Positions 5,959 to 20,717 of a DNA stretch of 23,070 bases are shown in pieces. The translations under genes were made by a program, and so were the position numbers. Within the stretch, counting starts at the first letter, position 1. Each line of letters begins with the position of its first letter. The DNA comes from a virus, in the IMG/VR virus record IMGVR_UViG_3300047552_001513, positions 1-23,070 of that record. One strand, written 5' to 3'. The notes beneath the pieces were generated by a model. That model worked only from the letters and a program-made list of their open reading frames with translations. It had not been told where the DNA came from and did no database searches.

Positions 5959-6821
5959 TAGACTGGCTCCTGCACGGTTACGCGTGTTTTAAAATAGACG
6001 GGGAAATCAAGCTGCGCGCCATACACGATCAACGCAAAAGCGCGCGTGTTGGCCGCGGCATACGCTGCTTGGTAGGCTGTGCCAAAAATTGGCGTGTATG
6101 AAGCCGAAAGACCTGACGAACGCGCAAAATAACCGGGCGCTTCGCCCGAGACGACGGATGTCAAGCTTGGAATATTTTGCGGAATCAAAAATGATGCATC
6201 GCCATAAAAGACATCGAATACTATGTCATTTGCAACGCCTTTTGTGCTAGCATAGCACTCAAATTCAAGTTTTGAGCCAGGGGGGATCTCGGACGTTATC
6301 AGTTCAGCGCGCCATACCCAAGCCTCAGTCCTCGATGATGAGGCTATATATGGCACAGAAAATGCCCCAGTCTCGTACGAAACCATGCGCGTACGACCTG
6401 TATTTAGGAGCCTATATCTATCACCAACCGCGGCCAGCGCGCGATATGTTGACGTAGCAATCGTTGGAAACGCGCTTAAACCTGCCACATTGGTCCATCG
6501 TCGGCCTGTGCCAGTTATCGTCAACTGGTGCGGTTCTGGCTCCGAAACCGTAGTGTTTTCGCAGATATAAATACCTGTCCCCTGACAGTAGACCATTTGG
6601 TTTGGGACTGCTGTAGAGTACGCGCGCATCGCTGATAGGCCATAAACGATCTGCATTTTGTTTATGCCAGCCTCTAAAACAGCGTTAAAATACGCGCTGC
6701 TGTCCGTTAGTGGCTGGATGCTTTCGAGCAACGAAGCAGCGTTAACTGGCTCGTGTGCGAGGTCTTTTGGTACGCGTACATCAGGATTATATTGCGCGTT
6801 TGCGATTACAGGTTGGCTCAT
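5958..6821 (-). CDS. Putative baseplate or fibre-associated protein
   Basis: 287 aa; GAGGG precedes the ATG by about 7 nt. It lies between the baseplate I-like gene and the large fibre, where P2/Mu-like phages place fibre-attachment (gpH-like) genes. Composition is Ala/Ser/Thr/Tyr-rich and beta-prone. The C-terminal half (LEFECYAS, VFDVFYGDAS, FALIVYGAQLDFPVYFKTRV) reads as a beta-sandwich. There is no membrane segment and no clear family. A structural tail role is inferred from context. Confidence 0.55.
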   Translation of the reverse strand: MSQPVIANAQYNPDVRVPKDLAHEPVNAASLLESIQPLTDSSAYFNAVLEAGINKMQIVYGLSAMRAYSTAVPNQMVYCQGTGIYICENTTVSEPEPHQLTITGTGRRWTNVAGLSAFPTIATSTYRALAAVGDRYRLLNTGRTRMVSYETGAFSVPYIASSSRTEAWVWRAELITSEIPPGSKLEFECYASTKGVANDIVFDVFYGDASFLIPQNIPSLTSVVSGEAPGYFARSSGLSASYTPIFGTAYQAAYAAANTRAFALIVYGAQLDFPVYFKTRVTVQEPV

Positions 6822-6823
6822 TT

Positions 6824-7462
6824 TTACCCTCTATCCACTAGATATGATATTAAAAACCTGGCGACCTTAGATCCAGCAGTGGCCTCTAAATTCGCGTCGA
6901 TATCGCCAGAGACGATAACGATCAACTCCATTGGGATGGCATGCGCTCCGCGATGATGCGCGCAAATCGACTTTACGACATCGACCAAATACGCGTCATA
7001 ATCACCACCCCAAGAGGCCTGGCCATCGCCCCAAGTCAAGCCTGACTGGCCCCACTCCCACGACCAATCGAATGGGTGCGGTTGACGGACCACGATTGCG
7101 TATTGCTGGTCCGTCCATCCCGATCGCGTAGCAATGGATACGTCAGTCATGCCAAGCGCTGCAAAGGCTGTTTTTAAGCCCTCCAACGTGCCAAACATAT
7201 CCACCCAAGGCTCTTTTTGAGCCAAGCGCGCAGCATAATTGGTCCTAGGCTCATCGGGCGATCTAATGATCCGGTATGGCTCGCCTATTGTCGTTAACGC
7301 GCAGTCTGGCGCAAACGTTGGCACACTACATCGCACCGATTCGATCATTTGGTCCATTGATGATTCGGCTATCAACGCAACAGCACGGATTAATCTTGAC
7401 GCATAAACGCCTCGTAATCCAATGGATATGAGCGCGCTTGCGAAACGCTCGTATGAGATCAT
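6824..7462 (-). CDS. Baseplate protein of the P2 gpI / Mu gp48 type
   Basis: 212 aa. Its place immediately after baseplate J, with an ATGA overlap, is the canonical J-then-I order. Early and middle sequence (RAVALIAESSMDQMIESV, then DEPRTNYAARLAQKEPW and LEGLKTAFAALGM) resembles gpI/gp48 proteins, which join the baseplate wedge to the fibres. A Trp/Gly-rich stretch (FDWSWEWGQSGLTWGDGQ) follows at about residues 135-155 and is a common hallmark of baseplate proteins from diverse contractile phages. Assignment is by order and pattern rather than close similarity. Confidence 0.7.
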   Translation of the reverse strand: MISYERFASALISIGLRGVYASRLIRAVALIAESSMDQMIESVRCSVPTFAPDCALTTIGEPYRIIRSPDEPRTNYAARLAQKEPWVDMFGTLEGLKTAFAALGMTDVSIATRSGWTDQQYAIVVRQPHPFDWSWEWGQSGLTWGDGQASWGGDYDAYLVDVVKSICAHHRGAHAIPMELIVIVSGDIDANLEATAGSKVARFLISYLVDRG

Positions 7463-8517
7463 GGCATGACCTGGATCAAATTCGTGAGCGTGTATACATC
7501 GCTTGCCGCCAGAGACAGGCCGGACGTTAGAGCGCGTCCATCCGCATATCGCACCGTGGCACGTCTCCCGCCGATAGCATCGAGGATCTGTTCATCGTAT
7601 AGCGGCTCACCTGCTGGGTGGCTCCGTAAAAGCGCGTTTAGCGAGTTGGCCAGATCTTGCGCTGTGCGTCCGTAGACAAATCCAGTCAAAACGATGGGTG
7701 TAGAAACAGCTGCGCTTGCGTATGGGATGATCCCATGTACTTGTTTCGTGTTATAAACTGCTTGTATTGCCGCTATTTGCGCGCTCGTAGCAGGGCCAAA
7801 ATCAGTGGCTAAACGCACCTCGACATGGTAACCGTATGAGCTATAATTGCGCGTTATTACGCGCACTCTGGTAATCGATGGGTCGGTTTTTAATGCCCAA
7901 TACTGATAAAACTCGGTTGGTCCAGATGGTGCGCGCGAGAGCGGATAGGCCAAACATCTTTGACGCAAACGATCATCAGTCTCCTCGTTTAGGCCGAGCG
8001 TAGTGATCCAATCGTACCCGTTTGACGCGATGATCGTAAAATTGCCGTTAGCGCTTGCGAGCGTTTGCCCTGAGTGGTTTCCGATTTCGCCTAGATCAAT
8101 GCTCTCGACCTCCACGATAACGCCGTTGGCATCGAGAGTATACGCGCCAGTGGACGCATAAACCTGCGTGCCACTGTACACGATCGGATCACCCTCGGCG
8201 ACAGTGCCGGTCCCATATACGACCACGTTACCGATAGTTGCGCGCGCAGGCTCCCTCGTTTGCTGGTAGTTTTGTAGCGCGCTTGCTGTTAGGGTGTCGC
8301 CTGTTGCGTATTGCGGCAAGCAAAATTGAGCCACGAGCGCAGCTTTTGAGCGCACCTCATAGGCGATATACGAGATCGCATCGATAAATCCAGCGCCTGC
8401 CTGAGTTGCGCGCCATGCCGTAGCTGGAAAATTGACTGCGTTTAAAATGGCTGTAATGTCGCTACGTACTGATTCGAACGTTGGCGCGGTCACGAGAGTC
8501 TCTAGATCAATCGCCAT
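7459..8517 (-). CDS. Baseplate J-like protein (Mu gp47 family)
   Basis: 352 aa, normal for the family. Recognisable signatures are an N-terminal helical start, a beta-rich central part with G-T-x-V-x-E-G-D spacing (YGTGTVAEGDPIVYSG, about residues 104-119), and the family segment NEETDDRLRQRC (about 177-188) followed by PSGPTEFYQYWAL. Baseplate J proteins form the inner wedge that connects the spike/hub to the outer baseplate in contractile tails. It lies 8 nt after the gp25-like gene and overlaps the I-like gene, as in Mu and P2. A weak AGGTG precedes the start. Confidence 0.88.
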   Translation of the reverse strand: MAIDLETLVTAPTFESVRSDITAILNAVNFPATAWRATQAGAGFIDAISYIAYEVRSKAALVAQFCLPQYATGDTLTASALQNYQQTREPARATIGNVVVYGTGTVAEGDPIVYSGTQVYASTGAYTLDANGVIVEVESIDLGEIGNHSGQTLASANGNFTIIASNGYDWITTLGLNEETDDRLRQRCLAYPLSRAPSGPTEFYQYWALKTDPSITRVRVITRNYSSYGYHVEVRLATDFGPATSAQIAAIQAVYNTKQVHGIIPYASAAVSTPIVLTGFVYGRTAQDLANSLNALLRSHPAGEPLYDEQILDAIGGRRATVRYADGRALTSGLSLAASDVYTLTNLIQVMP

Positions 8518-8525
8518 TGGTGCAC

Positions 8526-8894
8526 CTATAGCACGCCCTGCTCGGAGATAGCAATAGAGCTACCTCCGATTAGACGCGCGTTGAGTTGAAATTCGTAACT
8601 TGACCCAGTTTTTTTTACGTCAACAACTGCGCTCACAACGCGATCATCAGACATTGCGCGGTTATAGATGGCGGCCTTGATTTCGTTTTCCTTGATCGGA
8701 CTGTTCGGCAACACACCAAGCCCTGCCCCTGCGGATCTATCTCCGATGATCGATCCTTTGACAGCCATGCAGTCGATATACAGAGACTGTGCTACGACAA
8801 TTGGACCAGAAACCAGAGTAAGATTTGGGTCTAAATCACCTTGCCCGTCCTGAAAAATCATTGCGATGTCCACACCATAACCGTAGTTATCCAT
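8526..8894 (-). CDS. Baseplate wedge protein (gp25/W-like)
   Basis: 122 aa. The early segment GVDIAMIFQDGQGDLDPNLTLVSGP has the family spacing (YGxDI, DLDPxxxLVSG) of gp25/Mu gp46-like wedge proteins, followed by an internal VLPNSPIKENEIKAAIYNRAM helix that fits the conserved bend. It sits directly before baseplate J. AAGGAG precedes the ATG by 8 nt. The upstream stop TAA (8896-8898) is one base away. Confidence 0.75.
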   Translation of the reverse strand: MDNYGYGVDIAMIFQDGQGDLDPNLTLVSGPIVVAQSLYIDCMAVKGSIIGDRSAGAGLGVLPNSPIKENEIKAAIYNRAMSDDRVVSAVVDVKKTGSSYEFQLNARLIGGSSIAISEQGVL

Positions 8895-8895
8895 T

Positions 8896-9942
8896 TTACA
8901 TACTCCTTACTATGGATTTGATTGGCATTGGTACAACTGACATTTTTGTGAGGTCAGTCGACGCCGCAGCTTCGGCAGAAGCAACTTTATGAGTGTGTGT
9001 TTTTATTTTATCAAGCGCGCTCACAACGTCGCGCATGAATTGCTCGATTGGTGCGCTCAAAGATAGGCTGTCCGTTCCGTTGGCTATCGTTACGCTCGTT
9101 ATGTCAGACGTGCGCCACCCTATCACGTACGGAGTTGCGTCGATTTGGCAACAAACCACCGTTGCCCCTGGTGCAAACGTTGCGACTATGCCGGGCAATC
9201 CCCAAGCGACTTGAACGCGCTTGCACGAGACTCCATCGATAAACACAGAGCAAAAGTTACCATTCTGTGCTTCGATTGTCCCATGCTTGATCTTAACGTC
9301 GCCAACCCTGCGCGCAACTGACGATAACAACAGATCGAGCGTATCGCTCTCTGGAGCAAAATCGACGCGCGTGGAGTCCGTTGATGCATCGTAGATCGCT
9401 CGTACGACACGATGCTGATTGCCGGCAAGCGACATCGGGAGCATCGCAAACCCACGGATAGAGACCTGTCCAGAGCTATGATCTTCATCAAACACGAGCG
9501 ATGGATCGACCTCGATTGGGTCGGATTCACCGAAAAAAACCTTGCCATTTGGGAGCACACGATAGGGCGTGTTTATGGCGCTAGCTATGCGCTTGCACGC
9601 GTCCAAACGGGTGCCTGCTGGTATCAGCATCGATACCACTCGCCCAGGATCCTGCTGCTCGCTATCGATGCCCAAAATCATCATCACAGCGCGCAAACTC
9701 GCGTCAACCCAACGCGCTGGGATGCTCTCAAAAAGCTTGGCAGGACCGCAACGGATCAAGCCTTGCTGCGTGATCGTATCATACCTGACAAAATGGCCAA
9801 CGAGCGCCGTGCTTGCCGTTGTGAGGGTTGCCGGTGCGCCTACGACAAATTGACCATCGACAATGGCTTCGAAATCGCAAAACCACCCGATTTGGTCGCA
9901 CTCAAACACCCCATTTGCCAAGCCAACGCCGTTTAGGTTCAT
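8896..9942 (-). CDS. Baseplate hub/spike protein
   Basis: 348 aa. The first ~150 residues look like a hub domain: LDACKRIASAINTPYRVLPN then GKVFFGESDP (about 113-140) matches the dG-x-v motif of tail hub proteins. Residues about 215-280 (VKIKHGTIEAQNGNFCSVFI then CKRVQVAW) resemble the OB-like fold of gpV/gp45 spikes. Near the C-terminus is KTHTHKVAS, a His-x-His motif often seen at the tip region of spikes, where it can bind metal. Hub and spike functions therefore seem joined in one chain. The start overlaps the previous stop as ATGA. Confidence 0.65.
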   Translation of the reverse strand: MNLNGVGLANGVFECDQIGWFCDFEAIVDGQFVVGAPATLTTASTALVGHFVRYDTITQQGLIRCGPAKLFESIPARWVDASLRAVMMILGIDSEQQDPGRVVSMLIPAGTRLDACKRIASAINTPYRVLPNGKVFFGESDPIEVDPSLVFDEDHSSGQVSIRGFAMLPMSLAGNQHRVVRAIYDASTDSTRVDFAPESDTLDLLLSSVARRVGDVKIKHGTIEAQNGNFCSVFIDGVSCKRVQVAWGLPGIVATFAPGATVVCCQIDATPYVIGWRTSDITSVTIANGTDSLSLSAPIEQFMRDVVSALDKIKTHTHKVASAEAAASTDLTKMSVVPMPIKSIVRSM

Positions 9943-10622
9943 TGCCCATACCCCACTGGAATTGCTTTCGCGTACGCTTCTGCCGATGGTTTCTCGTAGT
10001 TGATCGTGGGCGAGTCAATGACGACGTCTTTATTCTCTGGCGTTTTTTCTGTTGACACGATCGGAGACGGAGCCCACTCCTCGCAGTCGATATCGAATTC
10101 TACGCGCTGCTCTGAGCTGTTATACGACCCTGCGATGTTTTTAATGGTCATGGATTTAGCTCCAACGGCAATCGTGAGCGGATGCTCGATCGAGACTATC
10201 GCACCAGTGTTTTTGGCTCGCACAAATTTATCTATCCACCCATAGAGCAAAGCCACTTGATTCGACTCTGTGTTTTTCTTGAGCGCGTACATCTTGATCG
10301 ATATCTTCGCCAGCTCTTTGCTCAAAAACGTGCGCGTAGGTGTTTTTCCTCGCTGCGAAGGGGATTCCCAGCGAGACCCTGCTTCGACGTCGACTTTGCA
10401 ACCTAGGTTAAACGGCACTTTAGCGCCCCCTATCACTGGGAGCCATGCCGCCAGGTCTTGCGTTGGCAGAGTAGTGTCTCGATCTGTGCCAACGATACCC
10501 GTAAAATCCATCGAGTCTGGAGTGGGTGGCTGCGCTTTTGGCGTGATTATAGGCTGGATCCCTCCGCTATCACGTGAGCGCTCATTCATTCTGTCCGCCC
10601 AAGACGCGCTTATGTCAGTCAT
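9939..10622 (-). CDS. Unknown tail protein between tape measure and hub
   Basis: 227 aa. The N-terminal ~60 residues are polar and proline-rich (PIITPKAQPPTPDS). Residues about 95-190 look like one compact alpha/beta unit (FLSKELAKISIKMYALKKNT, IVSIEHPLTIAVGA, VEFDIDCEEW). There is no signal peptide and no membrane helix. This position usually holds a tail-tip or baseplate initiator (LysM/gp53-like or Mu gp43-like), but no such motif is clear. A GAGGG-like site lies close to the start. Confidence 0.55.
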   Translation of the reverse strand: MTDISASWADRMNERSRDSGGIQPIITPKAQPPTPDSMDFTGIVGTDRDTTLPTQDLAAWLPVIGGAKVPFNLGCKVDVEAGSRWESPSQRGKTPTRTFLSKELAKISIKMYALKKNTESNQVALLYGWIDKFVRAKNTGAIVSIEHPLTIAVGAKSMTIKNIAGSYNSSEQRVEFDIDCEEWAPSPIVSTEKTPENKDVVIDSPTINYEKPSAEAYAKAIPVGYGQ

Positions 10623-12712: not shown

Positions 12713-13162
12713 TTAAATCACCGGCTCGCCATTTTCAAGGGGCACACCGATAATATTTGGCTTGACAGTGACATAAAGCCCCTCATTGGTCTTATACTCC
12801 TGAGAAACTGACAGGATCCTCTGAAATGTGAATCCGTATGTCAACGTTTGCTGACCAGGTGGCGCAATCGACAAGAAGATCTGCCCTGACGAGCTCATGA
12901 AGCGCTTTACAGAGCGCTTAAACTGCTGCCATGAGAGCGCGTGAATCTCCATCGATAGCGATGTGGAAAAAACGCCAGCGCTCGCTTGGAGCGGAATGCC
13001 TGAGCCAAGATCGTCGTTTTTTACGTCGTTTGCATACTCGATTGACACCGATCTGCCAACGATCGCAACTCCGCCAAGGGTAAACGCGTTTACCCAGGCA
13101 TAGTCATAATTGTCTTGACCTAGGTACAGAATTGCTGGGTTTCGGATGGTACCGCTTGCCAT
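12713..13162 (-). CDS. Tail tube protein
   Basis: 149 aa from the ATG at 13160-13162, which has GGAG 7 nt upstream inside the end of the sheath gene; an in-frame ATG six codons earlier is less likely. Beta-rich sequence with the tube-like pattern of an N-terminal strand pair, the segment GVAIVGRSVSIEYANDVKND and a C-terminal KPNIIGVPLENGEPVI fits tubes of contractile phages. Position immediately after the sheath and before the G/GT chaperone supports this strongly. It would form the inner rigid tube through which DNA passes. Confidence 0.8.
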   Translation of the reverse strand: MASGTIRNPAILYLGQDNYDYAWVNAFTLGGVAIVGRSVSIEYANDVKNDDLGSGIPLQASAGVFSTSLSMEIHALSWQQFKRSVKRFMSSSGQIFLSIAPPGQQTLTYGFTFQRILSVSQEYKTNEGLYVTVKPNIIGVPLENGEPVI

Positions 13163-13166
13163 GTTT

Positions 13167-14630
13167 TTACTCCGCCACAACGGTAAATGTTATTGATTCT
13201 GTGTAGTTTTTCGCAGGAAAAACGACTTCTCCGCGCAGGCCATTGCTCGCATAGGTTTGATCGACCACAAACGAGCAGTCTCCATCGGTCAATCCTCGCA
13301 CACCCTGGTTGACGTACGCTGACACATTGGCGCCAACGTGAGCTGCTGCGGCGGGCGATGGCGCGTTGAGTATGAGCGCATCATTATCTGCTACGTCATC
13401 GGCCTTATTGCGCTTAATAGGCTCATTTAACCATGTCTGGAGCTGTCTGCGCGCCAATCGATAGATCAAATTAGCTATGCGCACGTTACATATTCGATCG
13501 TAAAACGATTCGATCGAGTGAGTTCGACCTGCGCTGAAAAACCATTGGCCATCGAAAACAGTGGTAACGATTGAGGCGTCATCTAGGAGCGCAAACGCAT
13601 ATTCGTCGTAAACCGGCGAAGCTTCGAGCGCATATTCCCCGTTTTGCCCTCGCGCACCAAGATCATGGTCAAGAGCTTCAGACCCTAGTTTACGCGCGGC
13701 CTCTTGGATCAGTGTTGGATAGAGCGTTCGCAGCTTGCCGCCTATGGAGTCAGTCAATAGACCTGGGCCACCGACAGAGATGACTTGACGGTTGCGCGTA
13801 ACAGCCAAAGCCGCTGCACGGAAAGCGTTGCCCCATGTGGTGATATCGCTAGGAGTTGCGGTTGACACAGGACCAGGACCAGGGATGACTATAAACGCAG
13901 GTTTATTTGCGCTGAACATCGCGTTGATCTCGGTTACCGCTGCGCCGTAGTACGTGCTCCATGCGGTTGACCGATCGGCATCGGTTGCTCCTGCGTGCGT
14001 TGTCAGCACGATTACGCAATCAAAATCGTGTCCGGATGCGCGTAAAGCTGTCATCGCGGTTCCAAGATTCGTAGTCGAAACCGTTGGCCCTGTGCTCGTA
14101 GCGCTGTAAATCTCGCCCAGCACGTAGTTGGTGCCAGTGGCAAAATTGAGCGTAACGCCAGTTGAAAACGACCCGTCATACATCAGATAGGTTGCCGCAG
14201 TCGCTATTGTTCCGGACCACGTATACCCATCGTCTAGGGAGTAGCGGAAAGTTGCAGTTCCTCGCGCACCTCCGAGCAAAATCTCGACCTTGATCTTGTA
14301 GTGGCACAATGGATTGCCCGAGAGCGTTACGAGCGGTCCTGCGCCTGACTGTGTAACTGCGCTCGACGATCCATTGGTTGCGGTTGCTGGAACAGCTATG
14401 ATTTTGCGCCATCCCTGCGCTGTAGCAGCGCGCGCAACGGCTTTACCGAGTTCGTGACCTCCGATCAACGTTGCTATTGTTGACAAAGGCATGTTTCCGA
14501 TAGCTACTGGCACGTTTGCTGTGCCAGTGTTGGAGTACGGGCCAACAATCGCTATTACTCCAGATCCCGCAAACCCAGCAGGGGCTGCTCTTCCTGCGCT
14601 CAAAGTACCTGTTGCGTTAGGTGCTGCCAT
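13167..14630 (-). CDS. Tail sheath protein with inserted Ig-like domain
   Basis: 487 aa, the contractile outer tail cylinder (DUF2586-like). The N-terminal SGVIAIVGPYSNTGTANVPV and the middle GHDFDCVIVLTTHAGATDAD plus KPAFIVIPGPGP fit the sheath core, and the conserved-looking C-terminus ends in FTVVAE. The sheath sequence is interrupted at about residues 91-178 by a beta-rich domain (GGARGTATFRYSLDDGYTWS, ATAATYLMYDGS, STGVTLNFATG) that also occurs in three other virion proteins here. GAGGT precedes the ATG. It lies between the terminator-like gene and the tail tube, normal for Mu- and P2-like phages. Confidence 0.88.
   Translation of the reverse strand: MAAPNATGTLSAGRAAPAGFAGSGVIAIVGPYSNTGTANVPVAIGNMPLSTIATLIGGHELGKAVARAATAQGWRKIIAVPATATNGSSSAVTQSGAGPLVTLSGNPLCHYKIKVEILLGGARGTATFRYSLDDGYTWSGTIATAATYLMYDGSFSTGVTLNFATGTNYVLGEIYSATSTGPTVSTTNLGTAMTALRASGHDFDCVIVLTTHAGATDADRSTAWSTYYGAAVTEINAMFSANKPAFIVIPGPGPVSTATPSDITTWGNAFRAAALAVTRNRQVISVGGPGLLTDSIGGKLRTLYPTLIQEAARKLGSEALDHDLGARGQNGEYALEASPVYDEYAFALLDDASIVTTVFDGQWFFSAGRTHSIESFYDRICNVRIANLIYRLARRQLQTWLNEPIKRNKADDVADNDALILNAPSPAAAAHVGANVSAYVNQGVRGLTDGDCSFVVDQTYASNGLRGEVVFPAKNYTESITFTVVAE
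14097..14360 (-). other. Shared Ig-like domain, copy in tail sheath
   Basis: Residues about 91-178 of the sheath. Signature elements in order are VTLSGNP, GARGTATFRYSLDDGYTW, TAATYL, STGVTLNF and a GEIY-type last strand. The same order appears in the other three copies. Confidence 0.75.
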
Positions 14631-14645
14631 TTTTTACCTCTATAG

Positions 14646-15434
14646 TCATGTGGCTGTCACTCCTGTCAAGGCAACGTCTGTCACGTTGACATATTCGCCC
14701 TCGTCGAAAAGATCCATAAGAACATCAAATTCGCATCGCATTATTAACAAACTTCCCTCGCTAATTCCAGACCCAGATTCTGCGCTCGTGGTCAAAGACG
14801 AAGCTCGTATGTCTCCTGTAGCCCTACGGCAAGCCTTCAAGACCTGCCCCATTGCAAACCACACAGCATCTTGATCGCGTGTCTTGCGCGTATAGTTGGC
14901 GGTGTATAGATCGCCGACTGTGTAGTTTCCTGCCTCAAAAGCGCATGTAATCGACGTGCCAGACACAATAGAGCGCACGTAAACAAGGCCCGTGTCAGGG
15001 ACGGCAATGCTTGCCGCAGTGAGTTGCTGAGTGGACCAATTGAGTCCATCGCAACTAAAGCGCACTTCGGAAGTCCCGAGCGCTCCAGACTTGGTGATCT
15101 CGGCTCTGTATCCAGTGCTCGATTGGTTGATCAACGTCCCGCCAAACGTGACGTTAGGACTAAGCGCGTTCGATTTGGTCGTAACAGACACAGATCCATG
15201 GTTTCCGACGGCTTTAACCGTGATGTCAAACTGTGTGCGCGCCAAAAGTACTTCGCTCGTGGCAACGATTTCAGGCGCTCCAACGATCTCAAAAGTAACA
15301 GATTTTTTGGTCTTCGCTTGTCTCGTTTTATGCTCGCCTGACAAGACCTCGAAACCCATCGAGATGAGTTTTGGAGTTATGGCATCAACGAATGCATACG
15401 GTCTATTATAGACGTTTTTATTTGACGTTGCCAC
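14646..15434 (-). CDS. Tail-terminator/neck-like protein with inserted Ig-like domain
   Basis: 262 aa; GTG start at 15434 overlapping the previous gene by 17 nt. The two outer parts (about 1-85 and 188-262) look like one split alpha/beta fold: YAFVDAITPKLISMGFEVLS, LARTQFDITVKAVG, DAVWFAMGQVLKACRRATGD, LLIMRCEFDVLMDLFDEGEY. This fits tail terminator or head-tail joining proteins, which sit before the sheath. The middle (about 91-184) is the shared beta domain (GALGTSEVRFSCDGLNWS then TAASIAVPDTG and FEAGNYTVGDLY). Terminator function is inferred from fold impression and gene order. Confidence 0.6.
   Translation of the reverse strand: MATSNKNVYNRPYAFVDAITPKLISMGFEVLSGEHKTRQAKTKKSVTFEIVGAPEIVATSEVLLARTQFDITVKAVGNHGSVSVTTKSNALSPNVTFGGTLINQSSTGYRAEITKSGALGTSEVRFSCDGLNWSTQQLTAASIAVPDTGLVYVRSIVSGTSITCAFEAGNYTVGDLYTANYTRKTRDQDAVWFAMGQVLKACRRATGDIRASSLTTSAESGSGISEGSLLIMRCEFDVLMDLFDEGEYVNVTDVALTGVTAT
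14883..15164 (-). other. Shared Ig-like domain, copy in terminator-like protein
   Basis: Residues about 91-184. This is the most divergent copy: GALGTSEVRFSCDGLNW, TAASIAVPDTG, then a short insertion and CAFEAGNYTVGDLYTANYT. The GD-Y last strand matches the sheath copy. Confidence 0.65.
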
Positions 15435-15837
15435 GTTTACCCACTAGACTCATAGCATAAGTTTTGAATATTTTTTCGATGTGTTCTTGCCATTTTTTAG
15501 GCAGTTTCGTGCCTGGTATTATGGGTCTTTTGACGGTCTTTTTCCCTCTCCCATGCATTTTAAATCCATAGTTGTGAGGTCGATCGTTGTTAGAGGTTAT
15601 GTAAAAAGAGTCTGGCTTAACCATCAACCTAATCGAAACCCATCTAAGCGCAATCGTCTTGTCTTCAGTGAGTCTCCATCGTCTACCGCTTGGAGCCGTC
15701 CCTGCGCGTATCGTCTCTACGTTTTTCGAAAAGATCTCGTTTGCCGCGCGCTTAAGTGGAGTTTTCCCGTGCATGCCAGCGATCGCGCGCTTGAGCGAAT
15801 TCAGCTGCCCGATGTCGTACGATAATCGCGCTCTCAC
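15418..15837 (-). CDS. Phage virion morphogenesis protein (Mu gpG / P2 gpS-like)
   Basis: 139 aa, strongly basic. The start is GTG, overlapping the upstream stop as GTGA, with AGGTGA just ahead. The family pattern is visible: helical N-terminus, then GTAPSGRRWRLTEDKTIAL (P-x-G-x-x-W-x-x-L), a small-residue beta part, and RPIIPGTKLPKKWQEHIEKIF, like the conserved C-terminal 'P-R-x-F/W-L' helix. Such proteins act in tail completion and head-tail joining. It stands between the DUF1320 connector and the terminator-like gene, as expected. Confidence 0.72.
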   Translation of the reverse strand: MRARLSYDIGQLNSLKRAIAGMHGKTPLKRAANEIFSKNVETIRAGTAPSGRRWRLTEDKTIALRWVSIRLMVKPDSFYITSNNDRPHNYGFKMHGRGKKTVKRPIIPGTKLPKKWQEHIEKIFKTYAMSLVGKRGNVK

Positions 15838-16232
15838 CAGATCACCTGTGTGTCACTAACAACAATGCTTAGGCCGTCGCTTGCAGGGGTTGCGCTCACG
15901 ATGCCTGTTGGACAAATATGGCCTTTGGTTATGCCCTCAAACCAGCGCGTAGCTGCATCGGCTCTATCGCGCCAGACCTCGTAGTCGTTGGTCATTGGTG
16001 CGAGGAGCTTCTTCGAAACCAATAGCCTAAATGATGCTATTTCGCACACGTTTATTGTCAAATCTGCGCCAAACGACACGAGCGGCAACGCGTATCGATG
16101 GGACAAATACGAGTCGGCAACGCGCGAGACGGCCTCCAAAATATCGTCAACGTCATCGTTTGAGACGTCGGAAATGATTTCCGCATCGACTCCGTATTTC
16201 TCGAGTTCTGCGCGCGTTGCGTAGCTTGCCAT
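15834..16232 (-). CDS. DUF1320-type head-tail connector (Mu gp36-like)
   Basis: 132 aa. The N-terminal pattern MASYATRAELEKYGVDAEI followed by DVDDILEAVSRVADSYLSHR matches the all-helical gp36/gp6-like connector fold (ATxAELxxxxG, AIxxAxxxIDxYLxxRY). A middle helix (FRLLVSKKLLAP, then YEVWRDRADAATRWFEGI) continues the fold, with a beta C-terminus. Such proteins form a ring below the portal. The neighbours fit. Confidence 0.82.
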   Translation of the reverse strand: MASYATRAELEKYGVDAEIISDVSNDDVDDILEAVSRVADSYLSHRYALPLVSFGADLTINVCEIASFRLLVSKKLLAPMTNDYEVWRDRADAATRWFEGITKGHICPTGIVSATPASDGLSIVVSDTQVIW

Positions 16233-16520
16233 TTAGAAATAGACCTTGATTGTGCCTGAATTGAGCGTTGATCCTGTGCTCATGATCTGTTTGCATACGA
16301 TATCTTCTGGGATTTTCTCCCAACAAGCCCACGAAACGGTAGCCCCATCCATCAACACAACGGCAAGCGTCATGTCAACGGAGGTAATGATCCGCCTGCT
16401 CGGAAACGGGAGCAGCTTGGTGTCGCTCCCGGCATCATATGACGCATATTTAAGAGCAGACGTGATCGAAACGTCAGCTCTTGCCCCTGGTGCGCATTGA
16501 TCTGCGGTAGGTGCTGCCAT
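16233..16520 (-). CDS. Unknown small virion-region protein
   Basis: 95 aa. It starts MAAPTADQCAPG and has beta-prone segments (IITSVDMTLAVVLMDGATVSW, then LNSGTIKVYF at the end). It lies between the decoration-like and DUF1320 genes. A GAGAT-like site precedes the ATG, which follows the upstream stop directly (TAAT ATG). No family is recognised; it may be a small head or neck protein. It has a notably similar MAAPxA start to the sheath, which is probably coincidental. Confidence 0.5.
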   Translation of the reverse strand: MAAPTADQCAPGARADVSITSALKYASYDAGSDTKLLPFPSRRIITSVDMTLAVVLMDGATVSWACWEKIPEDIVCKQIMSTGSTLNSGTIKVYF

Positions 16521-16521
16521 A

Positions 16522-17208
16522 TTAGATCTCGATCCCTAACCGACCTGTAAACGCTGGGGTATCTGTACCCCCAACGGCGTAGATCGCTCGGACGAACCTG
16601 TTACACGGGCCTAGCGCGACACGTTGACGGCCTAGCGTGCGCCATGTCCAAACATTATCAGCGTTCGCAGATGCGTTTGCGTATGCGAGCGTTACGCCTG
16701 TCGACACTCCGTCCTCGTCCAACAGCAAATAGGAGGCTGCAGTTGTCCAATTGAGATAATACCATCGACCTCCATCGAGCGCGATCTTGAGTACCGCAGT
16801 ACCGCGCGCGCCTGCTGTGTCCACAGTTGCCTTAAAATTACACTCGCGGACGGCAGTGCCTGACAGGGTGAGCGCAGGAGGAGTTGTCCCTGAGCTCGTT
16901 ACGGCGCTTACAGACCCAAACGCTCCAGTCTCCTGAGTTAGCGCAGATCCAAGCGCAGTCCAACTTTTGCAGTCCGCGGAGTGGATAAACGACACGTCAA
17001 GAGTTGGGTTTGTGCCAGTAACTGCGCTGATATCGAGCGTTGCGCGCAGATTACGCGTGGTCCCCATATCGATGATATCGCTCGATGCAAGTCCGGAGGC
17101 CATAGAGGTTGCGAGAGTGCGAGACCAATACGGTTGGACTCGATTGTTTGCGTCTACGATCTGCGAATTGGGCAACTGGATAGGTTTTGCGTCTATGATG
17201 TTGGGCAT
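16522..17208 (-). CDS. Decoration- or head-fibre-like protein with inserted Ig-like domain
   Basis: 228 aa directly after the major capsid gene, the usual place for head decoration proteins. The outer parts form a beta-sandwich-like frame: TRNLRATLDISAVTGTNPTL and DVSFIHSADCKSWTALGSAL before, RFVRAIYAVGGTDTPAFTGR after. This frame recurs as a surface-protein fold in phages. The shared beta domain (about 102-195) interrupts it. No signal peptide. Decoration role is inferred from order, fold and the domain sharing with the capsid protein. Confidence 0.6.
   Translation of the reverse strand: MPNIIDAKPIQLPNSQIVDANNRVQPYWSRTLATSMASGLASSDIIDMGTTRNLRATLDISAVTGTNPTLDVSFIHSADCKSWTALGSALTQETGAFGSVSAVTSSGTTPPALTLSGTAVRECNFKATVDTAGARGTAVLKIALDGGRWYYLNWTTAASYLLLDEDGVSTGVTLAYANASANADNVWTWRTLGRQRVALGPCNRFVRAIYAVGGTDTPAFTGRLGIEI
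16624..16905 (-). other. Shared Ig-like domain, copy in decoration-like protein
   Basis: Residues about 102-195: SSGTTPPALTLSG, GARGTAVLKIALDGGRW, TAASYLLLDEDGVSTGVTL and NVWTW. It is closest to the copy in the major capsid protein, sharing SGTTPP, GARGTAV and NVWT. Confidence 0.8.
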
Positions 17209-17210
17209 TT

Positions 17211-18389
17211 TTACACCGGAATATTCGTGTAAAGGAGTGCAACATCTGGACGCCGCTCGTTTTCGTAGTCGTGCGTAAAGCGCGCGCTAGCATAGTATAG
17301 ATTACTAGCCCAGATCTTGCGATCTCCTAGCACTTTGCGCTCATACTCTGGAGCGACAAGCGATCCGTTCATCCAGAACGCAAGGCTCTTTGGCGCGAGC
17401 AACACAGTTGCTGCCTTTTGGGTGCCTGTTGCGGTCCAAACGTTATTGACGGCGGCGCTTGCGTTTTCGTAGTTTACTGTAACGCCAGTGCTTGCGTCGT
17501 CATCGTCAGGATCGAGCAGACTGAATGTTGCAGCAGTGGTAATCCCTGTTTTCCATGTCAATCCGCCATTGATTGACGTTCGCACAACCGCAGTTCCTCG
17601 AGCTCCAAGTGTAGTGCATTCCATGCGGAAATTGATACGTCGGTTGGGTGTGCCTGTGAGCGTAACATCTGGCGGAGTAGTGCCTGATTCTGTTACCACA
17701 AAGGTGCCGTCCGAGATCGCGCAACGATCCGATATGACTATATCAAGACGATTATCAAACAACGATGGCAAAAGGCTCCATAAATCGATATTTCGGCCTA
17801 CGGAATCCTTGGTTTTGCGCAACTGAGTTGCGACTTTTGAGTGCATCAAAAGGCCGTATCGCTCGAATTCTCGATCGTTTAGAGTGCCCTTGAGGTCAAC
17901 AAACGAGTCATAATTCGCGTAAACTGGAGTTGTTGCGCTGTAAGAGTCGATCACTTGACTTGTCGGCATCCCAGATGATGCAACAGCAGCGCTCATAAGG
18001 GTTGTATCGATCTTTTTGTTGAGCTTTTGCACCCATTGTTTTGCGAATGCTTGCTCAGGAGTCAATGCAGGGCTTGCATCGTTTGCCCATGTGGTAACGT
18101 CTAGCGCAAGACCAGCGCGAGCAACGCTTGCTGTAGTGTAATCGGAGGCGATCGATCGAGGAGTGATATCCACGCCGTCATTTAGATCGGTATAGTTGCC
18201 GATCATAGAGATGTGCGGAATTCGGACCTCTTTTCCGATAGATCCAGGGCCTTCGGGCATGTCTGTCTTGATGACCGCATAGGAAGCCATGCGCGCGCTT
18301 GTAAACGCGTCGGCTTTGCCCATCTCTGTCTTGACAGCTTCGGCCAAGAGCTCGGGTAAAAATACATTTGATTGAGTCGTAGTTGCCAT
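17211..18389 (-). CDS. Major capsid protein with inserted Ig-like domain
   Basis: 392 aa, HK97-fold type. The N-terminal helical region and the core segments are recognisable: ARAGLALDVTTWAND, EQAFAKQWVQKLNKKIDTTLM, then RLDIVISDRC before the insert and KAATVLLAPKSLAFWMNG plus FTHDYENERRPDVALLY after it. The insertion at about residues 231-326 falls between two core strands and would be displayed on the shell surface. GGAGG in the end of the protease gene precedes the ATG by about 7 nt. It is placed after the protease/scaffold gene, as is normal for this class. Confidence 0.88.
   Translation of the reverse strand: MATTTQSNVFLPELLAEAVKTEMGKADAFTSARMASYAVIKTDMPEGPGSIGKEVRIPHISMIGNYTDLNDGVDITPRSIASDYTTASVARAGLALDVTTWANDASPALTPEQAFAKQWVQKLNKKIDTTLMSAAVASSGMPTSQVIDSYSATTPVYANYDSFVDLKGTLNDREFERYGLLMHSKVATQLRKTKDSVGRNIDLWSLLPSLFDNRLDIVISDRCAISDGTFVVTESGTTPPDVTLTGTPNRRINFRMECTTLGARGTAVVRTSINGGLTWKTGITTAATFSLLDPDDDDASTGVTVNYENASAAVNNVWTATGTQKAATVLLAPKSLAFWMNGSLVAPEYERKVLGDRKIWASNLYYASARFTHDYENERRPDVALLYTNIPV
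17412..17699 (-). other. Shared Ig-like domain, copy in major capsid protein
   Basis: Residues about 231-326: ESGTTPPDVTLTG, GARGTAVVRTSINGGLTW, TAATFSLLD, an acidic DDDD run, STGVTVNY and NVWTATG. It aligns closely with the decoration-like copy. Confidence 0.8.
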
Positions 18390-18826: not shown

Positions 18827-19291
18827 GCGTTCTCCTTGTTCTGACCTCGAAAGGCTATTCGGATTCGAAGGCAACCCAGTCAACGATATTTCCAAAAGCG
18901 TGTTTCCGCTCAATCTGTAAGTGCCTTTGTTCTTGTCTATCCACTCTGCGCGATCTGAAGTGGCGCGTATGGACGCACCTCGCATAAGCTTGCGCTTATA
19001 CAACTGATAGAGTCGTTCCGCAAGAGGATTTAGATCATCCGTAAGAAACCTCACGCCTCCAACGAGTTGCCCGGCCTCTACGCGCACGCTTTCCGCCGTG
19101 CCGACGGGGATACTGGCGTCATGGTTAAAAAACACAGGAGACCCTCCGGCAACATAGCGCGATAGGTCCCAATCTTGCGAGATTATAGACCCATGAGAGT
19201 CAAGGTCTTCTGTCGAAAACACAAACTGAATCGATCTGTCATCGGTGAATTCTTGCTCTGGCGTTTGCGCGTATCTTGTAATGGTCTTCAT
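18389..19291 (-). CDS. Prohead protease (S78/HK97 type) fused to scaffold
   Basis: 300 aa. Residues 1-~150 are the protease: catalytic His at about 57 in FFNHDASIPVGTAESV, nucleophile Ser at about 107 in MRGASIRA, and a Glu at about 134 in LLEISLTGLPSNPNSL, giving the family spacing. Residues after ~155 are long charged helices (VKTEADAVRAKLEAFERSAS and on) typical of scaffold. The enzyme would cut the scaffold and the capsid N-terminus during maturation. The start overlaps the portal stop as ATGA. A strong internal start is described separately. Confidence 0.88.
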   Translation of the reverse strand: MKTITRYAQTPEQEFTDDRSIQFVFSTEDLDSHGSIISQDWDLSRYVAGGSPVFFNHDASIPVGTAESVRVEAGQLVGGVRFLTDDLNPLAERLYQLYKRKLMRGASIRATSDRAEWIDKNKGTYRLSGNTLLEISLTGLPSNPNSLSRSEQGERMNLDELFSEIAAALSCAPSHDAVLGAVRAVKTEADAVRAKLEAFERSASDRESADLKAQIESLPIERSVREWLGKQSTECVRSFIEHAPKASAPTRTPVEGSSLEGRFEGLTVEELAAKNDAMQLRRCYQADRDMWLRVRAVEVK

Positions 19292-20430
19292 TGTGTACCG
19301 TTTGCGCTCGTCTCGCTCGTTGTCTCAATCGTGGTCTCGTCTCCGGTTGGCTCCAAGAGCATCAGCTCTCGCGCTTCAGCTTGAGAGATCTTTACACCTG
19401 CGCCTATAGCCCCAACAAGCGCTTGGCTGTTACTCTGGCGCGCTGCAGCTTCGATGCGATCATCTTCGATATCGTCCATATCTCGCAATGGCACCTGATA
19501 TTCGTAACCAAATCTTGCACCAAAAGGCGCCAAGATCTGAGAGTGCACGCAAGATCCAAAAGCCTTGTTATCTATCGCCCAGCGCATTGTTGTGGCCTCC
19601 ATGTGGACGCTCGCAACTTGACCAGTCCCTGCGCTCGCCTGCATGCCAAGGTTTGCACCAACGATTCCAATCGAAATCTCTTGCTGCGCGATCTTCATCT
19701 GCTCGAAAAAAACCTCATACGTCTTAGCCTGCGCCTCCAAGAGCGCAAGCTTATCTTCTCCGACAAGGCCAATAACGCCATTTCTGCCCATCGAGCGCAG
19801 GCTTTCGACCGTGGCTTTTCGTCGATCTCCTTCAGCGCTATTGAGCACAAAGATCCCTGTGCCGTGTCTATTGGAGTAGTTGCCGCAGTCATCGAGCGCA
19901 TACTGTGTCAGCAATACCCAGCGAGATAGCGATCGATACAACCCATAGACCCACGGACGTTCACGGCTTTCCGTTGATAGGATAGACCAACGGCCGCCGC
20001 CGATATTGAGCTCGATCTCGCCTTTTGCAGTGCGGAAAAACCACTTATCGTTCATTTTATCGTACCGCAAAAACCTTGCGTTCTGCCTATATAATCTAGG
20101 ATATGTAACACCCATTATACGAGTTGGAACAGTCTCGACAAGACAGAACCCTTGCATAAGCATATCACGCTTTATGGATACTTCTTCTTCGAACGGGCAA
20201 ATGTTGTTCCAGATCTTGCCGATCTCTTTCGCGTCATCGTGCCAGTCAAGAACCATAGGAGCTTTGATTCGAGTCGTAAGCGCACTAGCTACGCGCAGAT
20301 CTTTGGAGCTAATCCACTCCGCAAGGTCTGCGCACATAACAAAGTTACCAGCATCGGCAAGCGTTTCGGCAGATTTAACCGTAGACGGTGTCCATGTAAT
20401 CGTTGCGGTAAACGGTGCCAGTTCCACCAT
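19288..20430 (-). CDS. Portal protein (DUF935 / Mu gp29-like)
   Basis: 380 aa. The C-terminal half has the family signature: an amphipathic EQMKIAQQEISIGIVGANLG helix, a short Gly/Ser loop (ASAGTGQVASVH), then AIDNKAFGSCVHSQILAPFG and FGYEYQVPLRD. The N-terminal half contains LTTRIKAPMVLDW, RDMLMQGFCLVETV and NARFLRYD, typical of portal wing/stem regions. The protein forms the dodecameric DNA gate at a capsid vertex. Only ATG 20428-20430 is available upstream of a stop. It has no Shine-Dalgarno match and follows a hairpin directly. Confidence 0.85.
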   Translation of the reverse strand: MVELAPFTATITWTPSTVKSAETLADAGNFVMCADLAEWISSKDLRVASALTTRIKAPMVLDWHDDAKEIGKIWNNICPFEEEVSIKRDMLMQGFCLVETVPTRIMGVTYPRLYRQNARFLRYDKMNDKWFFRTAKGEIELNIGGGRWSILSTESRERPWVYGLYRSLSRWVLLTQYALDDCGNYSNRHGTGIFVLNSAEGDRRKATVESLRSMGRNGVIGLVGEDKLALLEAQAKTYEVFFEQMKIAQQEISIGIVGANLGMQASAGTGQVASVHMEATTMRWAIDNKAFGSCVHSQILAPFGARFGYEYQVPLRDMDDIEDDRIEAAARQSNSQALVGAIGAGVKISQAEARELMLLEPTGDETTIETTSETSANGTQ

Positions 20431-20431
20431 A

Positions 20432-20493
20432 CGCGCACTTTGCTATGAGTGCGCGCAGATGTCAAATAAAAAAGTTCCGAACGCAGATGTCAA
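20432..20493 (-). promoter_or_regulatory. Direct repeat of TTGACATCTGCG and hairpin before the portal gene
   Basis: TTGACATCTGCG occurs twice on the minus strand (20482-20493 and 20454-20465), 28 nt apart. Both begin with a perfect -35-like TTGACA. The upstream one has TTTATT 17 nt later (a 4/6 -10 match). An 8-bp stem CGCGCACT/AGTGCGCG (20432-20439 and 20448-20455, loop 8 nt) directly precedes the portal ATG. This is the only sizeable non-coding gap in the head genes. Promoter or operator function is inferred. Confidence 0.4.
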
Positions 20494-20717
20494 TTGGGAA
20501 ATAGCTTAGACCAAAAAGATTTGTGAAATCTCACAAACTGACGACTGGCCAACCATTGCCACAATATGCGCAGCCTTAGGCTCGTGACATTGAATTCTGA
20601 CCTGTAAACCAGCCCTCTTTCGTCGATCCAGGCTACACGAGCTCGCTCCAAATGAACGGATTCAACGAGCATTAACGGGCCTCCGCTCTTATGTCTCACA
20701 ACGTCTCCATGGTTCAT
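20490..20717 (-). CDS. YodC-like protein (DUF2158)
   Basis: 75 aa. The opening NHGDVVRHKSGGPLMLVESV is nearly the diagnostic DUF2158 pattern (GDVVxLKSGGPxMTV), followed by ARVAWIDERGLVYRSEF, matching the W-x-D...F second half. Such small SH3-like proteins of unknown role occur in bacteria and phages. The C-terminal ~25 residues are Trp/Arg-rich and basic. AGGAG precedes the ATG by about 8 nt. Its stop region contains the first TTGACATCTGCG repeat. Confidence 0.75.
   Translation of the reverse strand: MNHGDVVRHKSGGPLMLVESVHLERARVAWIDERGLVYRSEFNVTSLRLRILWQWLASRQFVRFHKSFWSKLFPN

Follow-up and report, generated by a model that had tools for sequence, protein, structure and literature searches.

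A shared beta-domain inserted in four virion proteins of a phage with a contractile tail

The window considered here is a 23,070-base virus record, IMGVR_UViG_3300047552_001513, from a phage with a contractile tail. Four of its virion proteins, namely the major capsid protein (MCP), a small decoration-like protein, a tail-terminator-like protein and the tail sheath, carry inserts of about 85 residues that are certain to be homologous, with expectation (E) values of 1e-22 to 9e-7 that lie far beyond chance. The evidence as a whole is probably best explained by a mobile accessory domain for the virion surfaces of contractile-tailed phages. The L-numbers used below denote the records or loci of relatives that were compared with the window.

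When the MCP insert was used as a query against the window, it matched exactly four places, in four open frames: itself at 17424-17687 (100% identity, E 1.9e-56), the decoration-like copy at 16645-16893 (54%, E 1.5e-22), the sheath copy at 14097-14339 (40%, E 4.2e-13) and the terminator-like copy at 14898-15164 (37%, E 9.3e-7). A profile of 50 family sequences recovers the same four copies with E values of 1.8e-28 to 6.8e-21, the latter belonging to the terminator copy, and finds no fifth copy in the window, for example in the baseplate J or fibre genes. Whole-protein BLAST comparisons among the four hosts give alignments confined to the inserts, and the insert alignment has 13 invariant columns. 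An earlier note on this DNA had described one beta-rich domain with a common order of motifs in these four proteins, and both statements hold. The span it gave, 14097-17699, needs a small correction: the inserts cover about 14094-17690, and the host genes extend over 13167-18389. The motif SGTTPP, which it regarded as a mark of the capsid and decoration copies, does not serve as one, since GT[TS]PP also occurs in other copies.

The MCP insert is placed between 'IVISDRCAISDG' and 'KAATVLLAPKSLAFW', which in the alignment is the interval from the 'VISDR' strand to the one that follows it, and MCPs without the insert align on both sides of it. Eleven related MCPs, those of Riverbug, MMP7 and nine other contigs, have no insert at the site, one of them reading 'SDRAPVITGTPTKYVTLF', and such MCPs are present in Thermus and Meiothermus phages themselves. 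At the identical site the insert is found in six other viral contigs (L009, L034, L183, L184, L186 and L187), among which L183 and L187 share one MCP. For the decoration-like protein, a profile built from five homologues without the insert matches residues 32-92 (E 3e-10) and 187-222 (E 4e-7), which flank the insert. The terminator insert falls in a strand-helix loop, and the body of the protein without it matches a profile of seven terminator-position proteins weakly (hhalign probability 45-53%, the E value of about 1e-4 being that of a one-target comparison). The position of the sheath insert is the same as in the annotated sheaths of the Thermus phage Riverbug, the Meiothermus phages MMP7 and MMP17 and the Myxococcus phage Mx4, which are of type 2 (DUF2586) and stand in the same gene order as in the window; the profile matches at sheath residues of about 95-185 in most sheath-bearing loci. 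The insert-less relatives bear out the earlier proposal that the host fold resumes after the insert for the MCP and the decoration-like protein and, weakly, for the terminator. Because such homologues exist for these three hosts, it follows from the sequences that the domain is an accessory one. The insert-less decoration homologues also show similarity (E 3e-9) to the C-terminal domain of a family that PHROG names 'major tail protein'. We also note a tandem pair of decoration-like relatives, both without insert, at 10993-11760 of L184.

Promiscuous accessory domains of phages are known, usually with one or two carrier proteins described per phage, and the cause of their spread is unsettled. 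The domain described here is a real and unusually broad case of this phenomenon, and its family is unnamed, Pfam and PHROGs holding no model for it. Searching viral contigs and genomes by pattern and by profile yielded 77 distinct copies, most of them in sheaths, some of which have two copies, in tandem or separate. MCP carriers are found in six records besides the window and baseplate J carriers in Mx4, L044, L046, L051, L052 and L058; further carriers are tail-I-like (L056), spike-like (L084 and L185), LamG-like (L182) and tube-like (L145) proteins, these last names resting on sequence reading and position. In every locus examined, all carriers are virion-type proteins. The sheath and the MCP both carry the domain in L009, L034, L184, L186 and L187, and the sheath and baseplate J in all six baseplate J carriers. 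MMP7/MMP17 and Riverbug have it in the sheath only, and, unlike the window, none of these phages nor Mx4 has a copy in the MCP, decoration or terminator protein among those examined. No other record searched whole has more than two carrier proteins, as against four in the window, which is a statement about the sample; to that extent the wide placement described in the earlier note is supported. Used alone as a query against phage genomes, the MCP copy gave no matches, while the sheath copy matched four sheaths; a mixed alignment of nine sequences proved too heterogeneous for use in pattern scans. Thermophiles are the hosts of many relatives.

Several carriers have features of their own. In Mx4 the domain also lies near the N-terminus of the baseplate J-like protein p64 (L007, 14559-16022), where it is unannotated in the record. 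L044 and L046 each have the domain four times, as one pair in the sheath and another in the baseplate J-like protein, and the J-like frame of L044 ends in unrelated sequence, perhaps through a frameshift. By sequence reading, the tail-I (YmfQ)-like carrier of L056 lies at 9521-10471 and the long tube-like carrier of L145 at 6675-8672.

In a tree of the inserts, the MCP and decoration copies of the window are sisters (support 97/83) and form a trio with the MCP copy of L034 (98/88), in agreement with the earlier view that these two copies are closest. Their third bases agree at 17 of 45 identical residues, and the duplication that separated them is therefore old. The decoration copy is most likely derived from the neighbouring MCP copy by local duplication, because the decoration homologues of L034, L184, L186 and L187 are without it. 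The closest matches to the sheath copy are sheath copies of other phages, with 59% identity to that of L005 and about 40-44% to the other window copies. The terminator copy stands on a long branch without a firm place in the tree, and its description as the most divergent stands. A clade of all MCP copies plus the decoration copy is not rejected by the approximately unbiased test (p-AU 0.37), and the MCP bodies that carry the insert are compatible with one origin (p-AU 0.46). A common clade for every sheath copy is weakly rejected (p-AU 0.033), a hint that the domain has moved from one protein family to another. The proposed spread by duplication within the gene cluster thus has support for the MCP and decoration pair; it has none for the sheath copy, with its nearest relatives in other sheaths, or the MCP copy, which occupies the same site in six contigs. 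Recent gene conversion or repeat-mediated copying was rejected, the repeats being only 16-31 nucleotides long and imperfect and third-base identity being 36-44% at shared residues. Recent import was rejected as well, the G+C of the inserts (0.52-0.56) being close to that of their own genes.

An AlphaFold2 model of the MCP insert, built with 49 relatives (50 sequences), has seven strands and no helices, with a predicted local distance difference test (pLDDT) score of 96.1 and a predicted template modelling (pTM) score of 0.84. Seven strands would suit an immunoglobulin (Ig) or FN3 sandwich, and the insert may be a distant or permuted sandwich. Nevertheless, Foldseek found nothing significant in the PDB (best E 0.75), Ig variable domains appearing among the matches only at template modelling (TM) scores of about 0.2-0.25. 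Against viral models the best match is a protein of 472 residues (E 5.5e-4, TM 0.78), which is the length listed for the MMP17 sheath, and a weak match is named 'SbsA Ig-like' (E 0.56). A Pfam scan of the 50 copies gave no convincing Ig, Big or FN3 family, with one Big_7 match at E 0.055, and a PHROG scan of the same copies gave nothing informative. Fold prediction and structure comparison, applied to the MCP insert with its relatives, thus yield a confident beta fold without a significant Ig match; 'Ig-like' is an interpretation, and neither this label nor the reading of the domain as a glycan coat should be repeated as fact. Kinship with the flagellar junction proteins FlgK/FlgL, suggested by a likeness seen by eye and by the best TM, 0.49 (E 2.0), was rejected, as profile comparison with the E. 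coli proteins gave a probability below 1%.

The most conserved stretch of the insert, (F)xYSxDGGxTW, resembles the Asp-box hairpin of sialidases. BNR is matched weakly by 10 of the 50 copies (best E 0.012), and the family profile matches sialidase repeats with an E value of 1.7e-6 summed over five repeats, none of which passes alone. In BNR/Asp-box proteins repeated hairpins form a propeller, whereas the window domain has one such hairpin per 85 residues and no propeller. The likeness is a turn motif and not proof of descent. A strict Asp-box was rejected as a family signature, many copies being without the motif, including the decoration and terminator copies of the window. The conserved columns of the insert hold glycines, hydrophobic residues and residues of hairpin turns; among them no aromatic or polar site that is both conserved and exposed stands out, and the tryptophan of DGGxTW is partly conserved and replaced in Thermus copies. 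The conserved positions look structural, and a conserved binding site gains no support.

With respect to known systems, the phage Ig-like domains (Big_2, I-set and FN3), as far as quoted from Fraser et al. 2006, are likewise small beta-domains, promiscuous among virion proteins and dispensable for the host fold. The window domain shares their trait of occurring in several unrelated virion protein families and being optional in each; it differs in having no sequence family match and no significant Ig fold match. The P22 coat I-domain and the phi29 BIG2-like domain are likewise extra beta-domains in an MCP of HK97 fold. By sequence position only, the MCP insert is located, like that of P22, in the C-terminal A-domain region (PMC9965877, PMC5701804). 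The P22 I-domain, which has been described from coat proteins, is a six-stranded Greek-key barrel, in contrast to the seven strands predicted for the window insert, and profile and fold searches of the PDB gave no coat-protein match that would point to a relation of P22 gp5 type. The sheath of the Meiothermus phage MMP17 is listed as 'type 2', with two domains, by Evseev et al. (2022, PMC9230969), who place the extra sheath domains away from the tail tube and propose both adhesion and stabilisation as their roles.

According to the explanation that we favour, a beta-domain of seven strands and about 85 residues that folds by itself would pass from one virion protein to another in contractile-tailed phages and settle in surface loops, leaving the host fold unbroken. 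The sheath copy would be a long-standing resident of a clade of DUF2586-type sheaths from Thermus, Meiothermus and Myxococcus phages, and the MCP copy a resident of one MCP group at a single fixed site, from which the copy in the small protein would have arisen by old local duplication; the terminator copy would represent a separate entry, or would have diverged past recognition. On shell, neck and sheath the inserts would face outwards, as we infer from the reported placement of extra sheath domains on the side away from the tail tube (PMC9230969) and from the MCP site, which by sequence position only falls in the region of the P22 I-domain. They would then act as accessory contacts and not as parts for assembly or injection; their role may be weak attachment to the envelope of the cell or cementing of neighbouring subunits. 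Some observations weigh against this explanation. Relatives were sampled by sequence pattern, and the counts of multi-copy phages are lower bounds. The insert tree, which comprises 69 inserts and 78 columns, leaves many forks open, and a single clade of all four window copies is neither favoured nor rejected (p-AU 0.23). A single-sequence AlphaFold2 prediction of the whole MCP is unusable (pLDDT 29) and lends the outward position no support.

It is possible, if doubtful, that the four copies make up an adhesive coat that binds surface glycans or the host envelope, providing many weak attachment points from shell to tail. The placement of the domain on several virion parts agrees with this, as does its occurrence in spike-like and LamG-like proteins, and the accessory Ig-like domains of phages have usually been proposed to bind glycans (Fraser et al. 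2006, quoted in PMC9230969). The character of the conserved columns and the replaced tryptophan described above speak against it, and glycan-binding families are unmatched, the BNR match being a turn motif only. A tentative and rather unlikely explanation is that of a cement, in which each copy touches its like in adjacent subunits and makes capsomers, tail end and sheath more rigid. It agrees with the long retention of the MCP and sheath copies at fixed sites, would suit the thermophile hosts of many relatives, and has precedents in the stabilising roles proposed for the extra domains of P22 (PMC5701804) and of sheaths (PMC9230969); however, Thermus and Meiothermus phages themselves have insert-less MCPs. 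An unlikely reading takes the one module as a virion-wide coat, abundant on shell and sheath and sparse at the neck and tail end, that would attach in concert and with low affinity or make contacts with itself over the whole particle, the genes exchanging copies as the need at the surface changes.

The domain might also, though improbably, be a tolerated passenger that spreads because it folds by itself, has termini lying near each other and does no harm in surface loops, the decoration and terminator copies being of no use. Insert-less hosts are common, the copies have diverged strongly and their placements vary among phages; even so, the positions that determine the fold are kept in every copy despite synonymous saturation between the MCP and decoration copies, which implies selection on at least folding. 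Duplication of all four copies inside their own phage lineage is very improbable, for although the MCP and decoration copies are sisters and a clade of the four is not rejected, the sheath copy is closer to that of another phage (59% against about 40-44%) and other phages have MCP copies at the identical site.

That a single domain occupies shell, neck, tail end and sheath of one phage, and that relatives have one, two or none of these insertions at known sites, amounts to a natural deletion series, which lets the adhesion, cement and passenger explanations be separated. The family recurs in head, sheath, baseplate and spike proteins even though Pfam and PHROGs do not name it.

The virion genes of the window (Table 1) lie on the minus strand in a Mu/P2-like order: terminase, portal, protease, MCP, small proteins, gp36-like adaptor, morphogenesis protein, terminator-position protein and DUF2586 sheath, followed by tube, tape measure, baseplate J and tail genes. 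In the phage collection the portal matches only Mx4, MMP7/MMP17 and Riverbug, and the MCP is 29-32% identical to the heads of Riverbug and MMP7. The 95-residue protein has no family match in Pfam or PHROGs.

Table 1. Virion genes of the window and the insert copies within them
Feature	Position	Strand	Evidence or remarks
Mu-like portal	19288..20430	-	PF06074 E 8.3e-27
MCP, HK97-like, 392 residues	17211..18389	-	PHROG 544 'major head protein' E 1.1e-8; downstream of portal and protease
Insert copy, MCP	17424..17690	-	Hairpin after 'VISDR', before strand 'ATVLLAPKSLAFW'
Small beta protein, putative 'decoration-like', 228 residues	16522..17208	-	Homologues without insert between MCP and gp36-like adaptor in L034, L184, L186, L187
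Insert copy, small beta protein	16636..16896	-	54% identity to MCP copy
Small 95-residue protein, no insert	16233..16520	-	Open frame
Mu gp36-like head-tail adaptor, no insert	15834..16232	-	PF07030 E 4e-11; PHROG 195 head-tail adaptor
Virion-morphogenesis (gpG-like) protein, no insert	15418..15837	-	Gene order matches MMP7 and Mx4; weak match to L034 counterpart
Tail-terminator-like protein, 262 residues	14646..15434	-	Directly before sheath; weak profile match
Insert copy, terminator-like protein	14877..15176	-	Loop between strand 'TQFDITVKAVG' and helix 'RDQDAVWFAMGQVLKA'
Tail sheath, DUF2586 type, 487 residues	13167..14630	-	PF10758 E 3.4e-5, under Pfam cut-off; homologous to annotated Riverbug, MMP7 and Mx4 sheaths
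Insert copy, sheath	14094..14354	-	Sheath residues about 95-180
Tail tube (XkdM-position) protein, no insert	12713..13180	-	Gene order as in MMP7
Baseplate J protein, without the insert that Mx4 and others have	7459..8517	-	PF04865 E 7.3e-20

Elsewhere in the window, a small DUF2158 protein (PF09926, E 1.6e-6) is encoded at 20490-20717 on the minus strand, between terminase and portal. An N6-adenine methyltransferase-like frame at 97-1125 on the plus strand (PF02384, E 8e-5; PHROG 25988, E 3e-22, positions 658-727 of 1429) stops early and resembles a shortened large methyltransferase. On the same strand, opposite to that of the virion genes, sigma-70-like regions 2 and 4 at about 1200-1637 (PHROG 1740, E 2e-5) mark a candidate phage-encoded sigma factor.

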